Assembly (NCBI GenBank): GCA_002070275.1
Contig: MWCY01000002.1
Location: 75,820 to 139,819, forward strand
Origin: Candidatus Hydrogenedentes bacterium ADurb.Bin170
GTDB lineage: Bacteria > Hydrogenedentota > Hydrogenedentia > Hydrogenedentales > CAITNO01
Reading direction: 5' to 3'
DNA length: 64,000 nt
Positions 62 through 64,000 of the stretch are shown in pieces. The stretch's first letter is position 1. Each line of letters opens with the position of its first letter. The notes under the pieces were generated by a model. The model made no database searches and had not been told where the DNA came from. It saw only the letters and a program-made list of their open reading frames with translations. Made by a program: the position numbers and the translations under genes.

Positions 62-504
62 GCTCCGTGGTGCTCTGTGTTCTTCTCTCGTCCCTGTGCG
101 CCGGAAAAGATGCCCCTGATTTATCGCTGCGCCTGCGTGAAGTCGAAGCTGTAAAAGAAGACAGTTCCGAGAAAACCTACGACCGGGACTGTTCAACCAT
201 TAAAGATGCACTGGACGACCTTCCCTTCAACCGGTTTTCCATGCTGTCGGATAAAAAACTGACACTGACAGCGGATAAAGAAAGCCGTGTGCCTCTGGCT
301 GCCGCCTATGTATTGTCCTTAAACTATGAGGGGGTCGATGAATCGGGTCGTGCCAGACTTCAGGTCGGTGTTGAACTTGCGGGATCTGCTCCGGCAAAAA
401 AAGTGGTGGAAACTGTCCTGCTGCTTGCGCCCAATAAAAAGGCACGGATCTGCGGATTGCGTCAGGACAAGGGCGAATTGGTGCTCGTTTTTTCCACGCC
501 GTAA
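55..504 (+). CDS. small secreted protein with a domain shared with a Bat-operon protein
   Basis: A 149-residue protein of unknown function. Residues 1-16 are a short hydrophobic segment ending SSLCAG, consistent with a signal peptide or lipoprotein-like leader, so export is likely. A GGAG at 43-46 precedes the ATG, which overlaps the end of the upstream probable kinase gene. Residues 50-146 align without any gap to residues 116-212 of the 320-residue protein encoded at 45438-46400. I count 24 identical positions, including LPF (56-58), P80, Y85, LQ (102-103), VE (106-107), GL (134-135) and the final ELxLVF (141-146). The alternating hydrophobic pattern suggests a beta-rich domain. It ends convergently with the methyltransferase gene at 530. 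No known family recognised. Confidence 0.75.
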   Translation: MVSSVVLCVLLSSLCAGKDAPDLSLRLREVEAVKEDSSEKTYDRDCSTIKDALDDLPFNRFSMLSDKKLTLTADKESRVPLAAAYVLSLNYEGVDESGRARLQVGVELAGSAPAKKVVETVLLLAPNKKARICGLRQDKGELVLVFSTP

Positions 505-59355: not shown

Positions 59356-62022
59356 TTATTTCTGTTCTGCAGCGGCGCCCTCCTGCAGCGTTTTTCCCTG
59401 TTTACCGGAGAATTCGCTCATGCGGTCTATTATATCAGTACGACCAATACGCCGGGCAACCGCAAGAGGTGTCACGCCGGTGGCATCGGGCTGATCGACA
59501 TCAGCCCCCGCTTTCAGCAGCAGCTCAATCAATTCTTTGTTACTGCGCTCGGCGGCAAGATGCAGCGGCGTCGATTTGTTTTTAGTGACGGCAGGCACAT
59601 TCGGATCTGCACCGCGTTCCAGCAGAAGTGTTACCACGGGTACATCACCCCCTGTGACGGCACGGTACAGGACCGACCGGCCGAAAAGTGACCCGTTCAC
59701 CAATTCAGGATAAGAATCGAGGAAGCTCTGGAGAAATGCTTTGTCTTTTCTCTCGACCGCATTGCTCAATTCGTCGAGCAGCACCGCCTGAAAGAAAACC
59801 TGTGTCTGGGCGAGGGCTACACGGGTCGCCTTTTCCAGAGAACTCAGGTCGTTTCTGGCTTCATAATCCTCCCTGGCTTTCTTAATCAGATCCATGGGCG
59901 TTTCGCCCGCGGCATTCCTGGCGGTAAAATCCGCACCCCGGGTCAGCAAAAGCGAGGCTGTGCGGTGAAAGCCTCCCTGAACGATCAGATGAAGCGCTGT
60001 ATTGCCGTCATTAGCAGGCTCATTGACAGGGATCCCTCGAAGTATAAAAAGCTGCAGCGGCCCCCAATGCCCTTTTGCGGCACTGTAGTGCAGCGGCAGC
60101 CATCCCTGATGATCCCGGGCACGCATGTCAGCCCCTTTATCGAGCAATGCGTTGATATTCATCATGTGCCCGCGGGCCGCCGCCAGATGCAGCGGGGTGC
60201 ATCCATCCTTATCTGCCGCATTTACACTGGCACCTTGCGCAACAAGAAATTTGATGGAATCCTCACATCCAAACCGGGCGGCAACATGCAGCGGGGCAGT
60301 ACCTTTTTCGTCCACAGCATTAACATCCAATTGCTGTCCGACCAGCCAGCGTACAGCGGAATCGTTCTCATTGGAGGCAGCCGGAAACAGCAGCGTAGCC
60401 CCTTCGTTGTCTTTGATCCCCAGTGAAGCGCCTGCTTCAGCCAGCATGCGCGCCAGTTCATAATGATCCTCTTCCAGCGCAACAAAAAGAGGTGTTTTGC
60501 CGGTCACATCCGTACTGTCCACGATTGCATTGGAATCCAGAAGCGTTTTTGAAAGCTGCATATCACCCAGAGCGGCGGCACGGTGCAGCGGTGTTTGCTC
60601 CTTCTGATCCGACAAATCCGGATCGGTTCCCGATTCCAGAAGCAAGGCGGCAATGGCGTGGTTTCCTTTAGCTGTCGCCAGATTCAAAGGGGTACGCCCC
60701 TGCTTATCCTGCGCATTTACATCGGCATTGTTGGCAAGCAAAAGACGGATCATCGCTTCGTTTCCGGCATCGGCCGCTATATGAAGCGGTGTCCATCGTC
60801 GTTTGTCTGTCGCCTGTATTTTGGCGCCATTGGCAAGAAGCAGTTCTGCGAAAACGGTATTGTTTTTCTCAGCCGCCAGATGCAGTGGCGTCTGCGCCGC
60901 GCCACTACGTGTATCCACAATAGCACCTCGTTCCAGCAGAAAACGCAGCGCAGATTCTAAATTGCGAGCCGCCGCCACATGAATCGGTGCTTCACCTTTC
61001 GCTGAAAGGTATCCGATGTGGGCACCATTTCTGAGCAGAAAATCCATCATCTCAAGATCCTCTGTCATAGTGGCATGACCTAGTAAAGTCCATCCGTAAA
61101 ACCCACCGTCCCGACCGTCCGGGCTTGCTCCGTACTTAAAAAAAAGAGCCAGGTAATCCTGACGTCCCGCTTTTACAGCCAGAACAGCGGGTGTCTCCCC
61201 TTCCAGATTGGAGGTCTGACGGATGCCCGTTTTCAGGATAATTTCGACTGCCTCAGGGCTGTTCGAAGCCATCGATGCGATGAGAGGAGTCAGCCCCGTC
61301 CTGGAGACCAGCGAAAATTGCGCCGGATCCTCATCCGCATACTTTTGCAGGCGAGGTAAATCACCCAAAGCCGCATCCTGAAAAACGTCGGGACGGTAGC
61401 CCATCTCGCGAAACAGTGCCGTAACATCCCAGCGATGATTTTTTGCTGCCGCATGAAAAGCCGAAAAATAAGTTTCTTCATCATAACTCGTCAGAGGGCT
61501 TTCCCCTTTTTCCACAAGAAATCTGCATGTGTCCAGGCTTCCAGCATCTGCAGCTTCCAGAAGAGGTGCATAAATACGCTCGTTAAGGCTCTCTATGGGA
61601 ATTCCCTTATCAAGCAGCATCGCCGTGGTATACACATCATTTGCCCGTGCCGCCAGATGGAGTGCCGTGTTTCCCAGCGCATCCTTCGCCAGCAGATCGT
61701 CGCCCTTTTCTATCAGCAGATCGACAACAGCAGGCATGTTCGACCCGGCAGCAAGAAGCAGCGCATTTTTACCTGTTTCGTCAGTCTCATTATCTGCGGC
61801 TCCCTTTTCAATCAACACAAGAGAAGCATAAATATTTTTCGCAGCTACTGCCTGAAGGAGACTTGTAAATACAGGCGCCTGCTCCTGACCCGGCTGAACC
61901 TCTGCACTTGTCGGGATATCAGTCAAAACTGCAGGCGGCTCCGCGCCTTCCTCTGTCTGTGCAAAAAGACACGGAACAGCTATCAGGCACAGTAATGCAA
62001 TATAAAGCTGCGGGTACCGCAT
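59356..62022 (-). CDS. large secreted ankyrin-repeat protein
   Basis: An 888-residue protein. A signal peptide (residues 1-21, ending PCLFAQ) directs it out of the cytoplasm. It then consists of about 20 ankyrin repeats such as GNTALHLAARANDVYTTAMLL, RTPLNLATAKGNHAIAALLL and CTPLHLAAARGHMMNINALL, with a non-repeat helical insertion near residues 725-770. The repeat array mediates protein-protein contact. Secreted ankyrin proteins are unusual outside host-associated bacteria, so the partner, possibly the DUF3810 protein next door, is of interest. No enzymatic domain. Confidence 0.88.
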   Translation of the reverse strand: MRYPQLYIALLCLIAVPCLFAQTEEGAEPPAVLTDIPTSAEVQPGQEQAPVFTSLLQAVAAKNIYASLVLIEKGAADNETDETGKNALLLAAGSNMPAVVDLLIEKGDDLLAKDALGNTALHLAARANDVYTTAMLLDKGIPIESLNERIYAPLLEAADAGSLDTCRFLVEKGESPLTSYDEETYFSAFHAAAKNHRWDVTALFREMGYRPDVFQDAALGDLPRLQKYADEDPAQFSLVSRTGLTPLIASMASNSPEAVEIILKTGIRQTSNLEGETPAVLAVKAGRQDYLALFFKYGASPDGRDGGFYGWTLLGHATMTEDLEMMDFLLRNGAHIGYLSAKGEAPIHVAAARNLESALRFLLERGAIVDTRSGAAQTPLHLAAEKNNTVFAELLLANGAKIQATDKRRWTPLHIAADAGNEAMIRLLLANNADVNAQDKQGRTPLNLATAKGNHAIAALLLESGTDPDLSDQKEQTPLHRAAALGDMQLSKTLLDSNAIVDSTDVTGKTPLFVALEEDHYELARMLAEAGASLGIKDNEGATLLFPAASNENDSAVRWLVGQQLDVNAVDEKGTAPLHVAARFGCEDSIKFLVAQGASVNAADKDGCTPLHLAAARGHMMNINALLDKGADMRARDHQGWLPLHYSAAKGHWGPLQLFILRGIPVNEPANDGNTALHLIVQGGFHRTASLLLTRGADFTARNAAGETPMDLIKKAREDYEARNDLSSLEKATRVALAQTQVFFQAVLLDELSNAVERKDKAFLQSFLDSYPELVNGSLFGRSVLYRAVTGGDVPVVTLLLERGADPNVPAVTKNKSTPLHLAAERSNKELIELLLKAGADVDQPDATGVTPLAVARRIGRTDIIDRMSEFSGKQGKTLQEGAAAEQK

Positions 62023-62384: not shown

Positions 62385-63521
62385 ATGAAACATGTCAGAC
62401 TTCTGCATGCCGGGGCCTTGCGTCTCAACAACACTTTTGAGGCTTTGGGTGTATCTCCGGAAACCGGCGATGCACTTCGGGCGGCTCAGAAGGATGTGCT
62501 TGAAAAGCTCGCACAGCAGGCGCAAAGCTTGCCCGCTGATATGATCATTCTCAGCGGCGGACTCTTTGCGACCCTTCCTGTCCGCGCTGATTTGCTGCTG
62601 CGGGTTCTCGAGTGCCTGGAACAGGTCGCCCCCACTCCTGTTTATATTTTTCCGGGGGCACATGAAGGACTTCATGATCTTTCCCCCTGGGACTTTGCTC
62701 TGGTGCCTGACAACGTAACTGTTTTTTCCGGCACTGCATGGTCAAGTGTTGATCATCCGCACCTGCCCGTAACGATACATGGCAGGACGGACGCAGCCAC
62801 GCCTCTTGATTTCAGGAATCTGCATTTCCCTGAAGACGGGCGGATCCATATTGCCGGTATCGATTGCGGCAATACATCCCTGGACGAACTGCAGGAAGTC
62901 CCTTCCCGATTGGCCTATCTGGCGCTTGGAACCTGCCAGATAACCGCTGATCTTAAAGAAAAGGCAGGCGTATGCGGGTGTGCTGCAGCTGCACCGCAGG
63001 CACTCTCTTTCGATGAATGCGGAGAGAAGCATTTCTTCAAAGTGAATATAACACTGGACGACCACGCTTCCATACATACAACTGTGGAAACACTGCCTTC
63101 CTCCTCCTTGCTTTTTGAAAAGCGCAGCCTCGATATCGCTGATCTTCCTTCACCGGATGAAAACGCGGCGCAGCTGCTCGCACTGCCAGAACAGCATCTC
63201 AAACGAGTTCTTTTAAAACTTGTCATCACAGGGACTAAAAACGGGTGTATGATCGATCACCTGCACAGTTTTATCAAACACTTACGTCCAAAACTTCAAC
63301 ATCTGGAAGTGGAAGACACCTCCCGGCTGAATCCTGATTCTCTTTCGGCGGCAGGAACAGAAATCCTGACACGGGATATTGCAGCACAGATTTTGCAGCG
63401 CCTCCGGGACTGTACCGATTATGAAGAAAAACAGCGGCTGGAAATGAGTCTTCGTCTTCTGTTTAAGGCAGTTTATGACACTCATGCCGGCCTGAATGCT
63501 GAGGGATTGAGCGAGCCATGA
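62385..63521 (+). CDS. SbcD/YhaO-like calcineurin phosphoesterase with lost metal ligands
   Basis: A 378-residue protein that follows the SbcD/YhaO plan: VRLLHAGALRLNN, ADMIILSGGLFAT, TPVYIFPGAHEGL, LAYLALGTCQI and QALSFDECGEKHFF correspond in order to the blocks with DxH, GDLF, GNHD, GHxH and the (P)LxFxExGEKG end of the nuclease domain. The residues needed for the two metals are mostly missing: the DxH position reads A11-L12-R13, GD reads G58-G59, GNHD reads G-A-H-E with only His93 kept, and GHxH reads G-T-C-Q. The fold is probably intact but nuclease activity is unlikely. It is coupled to the next gene by an ATGA overlap. Confidence 0.72.
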   Translation: MKHVRLLHAGALRLNNTFEALGVSPETGDALRAAQKDVLEKLAQQAQSLPADMIILSGGLFATLPVRADLLLRVLECLEQVAPTPVYIFPGAHEGLHDLSPWDFALVPDNVTVFSGTAWSSVDHPHLPVTIHGRTDAATPLDFRNLHFPEDGRIHIAGIDCGNTSLDELQEVPSRLAYLALGTCQITADLKEKAGVCGCAAAAPQALSFDECGEKHFFKVNITLDDHASIHTTVETLPSSSLLFEKRSLDIADLPSPDENAAQLLALPEQHLKRVLLKLVITGTKNGCMIDHLHSFIKHLRPKLQHLEVEDTSRLNPDSLSAAGTEILTRDIAAQILQRLRDCTDYEEKQRLEMSLRLLFKAVYDTHAGLNAEGLSEP

Positions 63522-64000
63522 TTCTCACGACTCTTTCATATCTGCATCCGGAAACGCGCGAATCTGTCGTCCGGGCTTTGGGTACCGAGCGATGCCTGCT
63601 GTATTGTCCTGCTTCTGAAACTGCCCGTTTCCTCAGCACAGAAATCCATCAGCAGCAGCCCGCCCCCCTGGAAACTGCCAATGAAGCATCTCAAGTTTTC
63701 TCTTTGCCCGGTTACTCCAGCGTTCGACTGGACTACCGGAAAAGAATTACTGCAGGTCTTCAGGACAGCCTTTTTGCTGAAGTTTCGGACAGCAATCCCG
63801 CTCCGGATGATCCGGACAGTGACGCTTTTTTTCGGGGTCAGCAGGATTTGTTTCACCTGTCATTAGGAGATGCACTGCAGGCAGAACATGAAAAAGAAGC
63901 CCTGCTGGTGACACAGCTCGCTCCGCTCATTGAAAGCGGCAGCTCTGCCAAAGGGCTCACTGAAGCCATGAGGATGTTGGATGAACTGGCAGTGTCGCTG
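63518..64000 (+). CDS. partial unidentified protein, downstream partner of the SbcD-like gene
   Basis: An open frame of 161 codons that starts within the stop of the SbcD-like gene (ATGA) and runs past the right edge of the window, so the 3' end is missing. It starts MILTTLSYLHPETRESVV and contains a helical, acidic C-terminal part (EHEKEALLVTQLAPLIESGSS read in two pieces). No Walker A motif or other known signature is visible in these residues. In SbcD/YhaO operons an SMC-like ATPase usually follows; the visible start does not look like one. Confidence 0.65.
   Translation, partial: MILTTLSYLHPETRESVVRALGTERCLLYCPASETARFLSTEIHQQQPAPLETANEASQVFSLPGYSSVRLDYRKRITAGLQDSLFAEVSDSNPAPDDPDSDAFFRGQQDLFHLSLGDALQAEHEKEALLVTQLAPLIESGSSAKGLTEAMRMLDELAVSL

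Follow-up and report, generated by a model that had tools for sequence, protein, structure and literature searches.

What can be the function of a nuclease gene that keeps the architecture of its family and none of its metal ligands? The question is raised by an open reading frame close to the end of the window, the 64,000-nucleotide stretch of DNA analysed here (positions 75820–139819 of contig C2 of genome G000, Candidatus Hydrogenedentes bacterium ADurb.Bin170). A sequence-only reading had described an SbcD/YhaO-like pseudo-nuclease with the phosphoesterase blocks in preserved order, nearly all metal-binding residues lost, and a second gene that could not be recognised and ran off the window. 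The contig extends 2.8 kb beyond the window, and this part was read for the second gene (Table 1).

The former nuclease and its partner

The altered blocks read exactly as they had been described. Their order is ALR, SGG, GAHE, IDCGN and GTCQ, with IDCGN in place of a fifth block, HG..E. The seven ligand columns (D, H, D, N, H, H, H), which in Mre11 supply the metal ligands, were taken from an alignment of 59 family members. In the window's protein, pseudo-YhaO, the loss is complete, and A11, R13, G59, A92, D160, T183 and Q185 occupy these columns. The sole survivor is H93, the catalytic-type His of motif III. Conservation of at least 90% among 38 intact relatives marks out 66 columns. Of these, all seven ligands are changed, and the other 59 divide into 33 kept and 26 changed (Fisher p = 0.011); by this count of aligned columns, the ligand loss exceeds the general divergence of the protein. 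The columns invariant across dead and intact YhaO (H8, L14, R32, G58, S100, G182 and P204) include no ligand and are presumably structural.

Table 1. Features of the yhaO-yhaN locus, in window positions unless given as residues
Feature	Position	Strand	Remark
Pseudo-YhaO	62385..63521	+	378 aa, Mre11/SbcD fold, metal ligands replaced 7/7
Pseudo-YhaO C-terminal helices	residues ~317-367	+	where the Rad50-binding region would be
Motif I, D-x-H to A11-L12-R13	62415..62423	+	family alignment
Motif II, G-D to G58-G59	62556..62561	+	family alignment; block reads SGG
Motif III, G-N-H-D to G91-A92-H93-E94	62655..62666	+	family alignment
Motif IV, metal-binding His to D160	62862..62864	+	family alignment
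Motif V, G-H-x-H to G182-T183-C184-Q185	62928..62939	+	family alignment
Pseudo-YhaN, first 161 codons	63518..64000	+	whole protein 1006 aa, ends at window-equivalent 66538 (L009:1838-4858)
ATGA, yhaO stop / yhaN start overlap, 4 bp	63518..63521	+	

On sequence alone, the assignment to the SbcD/Mre11 family is weak. The sbcd model gives E = 0.012 and 15.5 bits with a cut-off of 77.65, Thermotoga maritima Mre11 gives E = 0.06, and Pfam returns nothing meaningful for the protein. About 20 Metallophos proteins are found in G000, a count that misses pseudo-YhaO since its sequence is now beyond the reach of the Pfam model. An AlphaFold2 model built on a 49-sequence alignment (pLDDT 84.9, pTM 0.81) predicts a calcineurin-like phosphoesterase fold with the Mre11-type cap and C-terminal helices. 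When this model was searched against the PDB with Foldseek, Mre11/SbcD accounted for 50 of the 50 matches listed, with a best E of 1.8e-12. Taken together, the series of homologues and the predicted fold make a firm case for Mre11/SbcD membership, in agreement with the family originally proposed.

The ATGA overlap of the two genes suggests that yhaO and yhaN are translationally coupled. The second gene does run off the window, but it is complete in the contig beyond and can be recognised there as YhaN/Rad50-like; its product matches the YhaN genes that lie directly 3' of yhaO in relatives. The SMC/Rad50-type ATPase gene that had been sought in the next position is present, though in an apparently ATPase-dead form that had not been foreseen. 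The protein contains long coiled coils and a hydrophobic membrane hairpin of two helices at residues ~459-506, with hydropathy up to 2.8. Nearly all YhaN examined in the order, intact or dead, have such a hairpin midway along the coiled coil. Foldseek matches the model of pseudo-YhaN to condensin, Smc5/6 and Rad50, a result that counts as support and not as proof, the model being of moderate quality (pLDDT 76.7, pTM 0.38).

Intact YhaN relatives carry GPNExGKST, LSKGTxDQ and LLDDPFxNYDD. Of seven positions scored in the Walker A, signature (LSxG) and Walker B motifs, one is kept in G000 and in its congener G001, namely the Walker B Asp, and in the C-terminal lobe of pseudo-YhaN the signature, the catalytic Walker B and the D-loop are destroyed. 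In a profile alignment with hhalign, the similarity to intact YhaN covers residues 105-249 (E 2e-14). No P-loop lobe is recognisable in the first ~100 residues, which precede this match and have a pLDDT below 50. The coiled coils, the C-lobe and the pairing with yhaO are thus present, and the N-lobe is not recognisable. Pfam finds no AAA family in pseudo-YhaN, and one intact relative tested matches AAA_27. From these motifs, both the nuclease half and the ATPase half of the pair appear to be catalytically dead; a degenerate nucleotide site is possible within the poorly predicted N-terminal 100 residues. A Walker A mutated residue by residue ('CPASETARF', a likeness seen by eye) was considered and dropped, since the placement of the N-terminus by MAFFT was misleading and homology to intact YhaN starts only at about residue 105.

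Relatives of the pair and selection

The congener G001 possesses the same doubly dead pair. Its YhaO is 51–52% identical and has 0/7 ligands; its YhaN is 54% identical and likewise of 1006 aa. Synteny is also shared, a divergent ankyrin-repeat gene and a 369-aa gene lying upstream of yhaO-yhaN in both genomes. The ankyrin-repeat gene of the window (59356-62022, minus strand) is transcribed away from the yhaO-yhaN operon; its protein has 888 aa and consists almost wholly of repeats, and a relative of 911 aa is found at the same place in G001. A closer YhaO, 88% identical and with 1/7 ligands, is encoded in LVAA01000226.1 of Syntrophobacterales bacterium Delta_02.

By the Nei–Gojobori method, the dN/dS of YhaO is 0.20 between G000 and Delta_02 (dS 0.30) and 0.24 between G000 and G001 (dS 1.7), and intact pairs give 0.11–0.20. 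For YhaN of G000 and G001, changes amount to 0.257 at second and 0.636 at third codon positions. No stops interrupt YhaO in G000, Delta_02 and G001 or YhaN in G000 and G001. Purifying selection acts on a YhaO without an active site. The identification of a pseudo-nuclease, as distinct from a freshly decayed gene, is supported by these comparisons, since the congener and the near relative also lack the ligands and are under purifying selection. The sequence-only reading had held that homologues with intact ligands in the same position would speak for decay; such homologues do exist, in more distant genera only, and the dN/dS values argue against the decay that they were to indicate.

Repeated loss of catalytic motifs in the order

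YhaO is found in 65 of the 68 genomes of the order, usually with intact motifs, and a long YhaN frame follows it on the 3' side at nearly all loci where the contig continues. No YhaO match was obtained in G019 (99% complete) and G067 (90% complete), so the complex is not indispensable and total loss is possible in the order.

A YhaO tree was built without the ligand columns, with proteins called dead when they keep four or fewer of seven ligands. Ligand loss requires six changes on this tree (the least number forced by the starred branches is four), and a single clade of dead YhaO is rejected (p-AU 7e-12). The affected lineages are genus g1 (that of the window), part of g3, g19 (family f11), family f7, G021 (f6) and g36 (f5); G021 and f7 have long branches, which makes their position on the tree uncertain. 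YhaN has died about three times (three changes), in the ancestor of g1, g3 and g4, in G029/G034 of f7 and in G021. In the sister genus g4, a dead YhaN stands beside a YhaO with 6–7 of the 7 ligands (clade support 100/100), and from this pattern of motifs it is concluded that the ATPase was lost before the nuclease ligands in the clade of g1, g3 and g4. The order is reversed in f11, in g36 of f5 and in part of f7, where YhaO died first. Catalysis is optional in more than one way, and the pair is retained. Genus g1 sits on a very long branch (1.6-1.7 changes per site), a length as compatible with relaxed constraint or a changed function as with conservation of an earlier structural role.

Two further observations concern the relatives. 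In the dead YhaN of G008 (L104), a TAG and a TAA each interrupt the matched frame once, owing to a frameshift, an error of assembly or genuine decay in the species. Many otherwise intact YhaO keep the seven ligands and have the catalytic-type His of motif III replaced (GNRDP, GNKDP, GNNDP, GNEDP), as in G002, G004-G007, G010, G011, G014, G015, G017 and G018 and likewise in G026, G032, G050 and G051; these motifs suggest an altered chemistry even in YhaO counted as intact.

A maintained pair and its possible role

The explanation that we find the more probable is that yhaO and yhaN have been inherited vertically and encode a complex now deprived of both catalytic activities, which is maintained as protein and has a structural core role. 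As the fold, the C-terminal helices, the coiled coils and the hairpin are kept and both active sites are dispensable, a structural complex is the simplest reading, and it would probably be membrane-tethered. A broader proposal, plausible and put forward more tentatively, is that in the whole order the core function of YhaO-YhaN is non-catalytic, membrane-tethered and structural, with the nuclease and the ATPase as options that were repeatedly and independently lost, the window representing the fully disarmed extreme. The hairpin midway along the coiled coil would anchor YhaN in the membrane, YhaO would dock close to the heads on the coiled coils of YhaN, and the tethered scaffold might bind or position DNA or a partner protein. 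The sensing of DNA ends, raised in the sequence-only reading, is a possible task for it. The structural role would be the core one in the order and older than the losses, nuclease action and ATP cycling forming a second, dispensable function. The ATPase would have disappeared first, in the ancestor of g1, g3 and g4; the nuclease ligands of g1, and some of those of g3, would have followed. DNA-end processing would probably be covered by AddAB-type enzymes, RecN and RecF.

It could instead be supposed that, with the ATPase gone, the pair became useless and is now slowly disappearing as a pseudogene operon. The long branch to g1, the stops in the YhaN of G008, the step-by-step erosion of motifs across g3 and g1 and the absence of YhaO from G019 and G067 agree with such slow decay, but the dN/dS of dead YhaO (0.20-0.24) is near that of intact pairs (0.11-0.20), open YhaN frames of 1006 aa persist in two species at 54% identity, synteny is conserved, and structural columns are retained where ligands are gone. 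Slow decay is largely refuted by this evidence and seems improbable. Somewhat better placed, though still unlikely, is the acquisition of a new active or ligand site on the old folds, for another metal or a nucleotide second messenger, which would make the pair a different enzyme or receptor. A long branch followed by constraint would be expected from such a change, and a partly conserved C-x-[DS] ... [AS]R-x-L[AS] near YhaN residues 29-41, present in most of g1, g3 and g4, might belong to a site of this kind. The former ligand positions, however, read A-R-G-A-D-T-Q in G000 and A-R-R-G-L-M-R in G001, so that no new conserved cluster occupies the old site.

A dead pair might also hybridise or compete with an active Mre11-Rad50 pair that shares its cell and act as a regulatory decoy or inhibitor. 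Genus g19 of f11, with a dead YhaO and a second, intact canonical YhaO-YhaN pair, offers a setting for this. Against it, searches of G000 family by family revealed no other YhaO/SbcD relative above background, and no second SbcD/YhaO pair was found in G001, which leaves nothing to inhibit; when the frames of the top AAA_23 matches in G000 were read, only SMC, RecF and RecN were identified. Such a decoy is unlikely in the window's genome, and as a general explanation of the pair we consider it highly improbable.

The window pair resembles known YhaO-YhaN systems in gene order, in lengths (~380 and 1000-1050 aa), in the Metallophos fold, in the SMC-type coiled-coil partner (an AAA_27-type ATPase) and in the transmembrane hairpin at mid-protein, and it is linked to them through a tree that includes intact relatives from its own order. 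It differs in that YhaO has no metal ligands and YhaN has no P-loop lobe, signature or D-loop. With SbcCD/Mre11-Rad50 it shares the Mre11 fold, including the cap and the C-terminal helices, and a predicted Rad50/SMC architecture of the partner, whereas YhaO falls short of the SbcD model (15.5 against 77.65 bits), the catalytic residues are missing and the coiled coil of the partner bears a membrane hairpin. Structural and signalling functions beyond the nuclease have been ascribed to eukaryotic Mre11–Rad50, and experiments can hardly separate them from it.

The open-access literature yielded no natural Mre11–Rad50-type complex dead in both ATPase and nuclease and no relevant precedent for an inactive Mre11/SbcD; the YhaO/YhaN pair appears almost unstudied there, and no relevant precedent for its function was met. 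The fungal Dis3L2/Ssd1 pseudonucleases have lost their active sites at least four times with the protein kept, and an older non-catalytic function has been proposed for them (PMC8097288). Repeated independent loss with retention of the protein is common to both cases, but Ssd1/Dis3L2 is a single RNA-binding enzyme of the RNase II family, and here both halves of a nuclease-ATPase pair appear to be dead. If the proposal is true, a lineage in which the complex outlived its ATPase and then its nuclease would offer the non-catalytic function in isolation, and the order of events would be testable in sister genera standing at each step (intact, ATPase-dead and both dead). The disarmed pair also hints at what YhaO–YhaN may do.

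Other nucleases and double sets were noted in these genomes. G000 also encodes PDDEXK_1 proteins, in open frames 1051 and 1137 aa long, and these suggest end processing of the AddAB type. A metallophosphoesterase beside an SMC gene on contig C42 was considered as a second Mre11-type nuclease and set aside, as by eye it looks like a YmdB-type phosphodiesterase. In genus g19, the dead YhaO lies in the order-wide operon and the canonical intact YhaO-YhaN operon is located elsewhere; the double set was seen at L098, L100 and L101 (genomes G046, G030 and G048) and also in G040.
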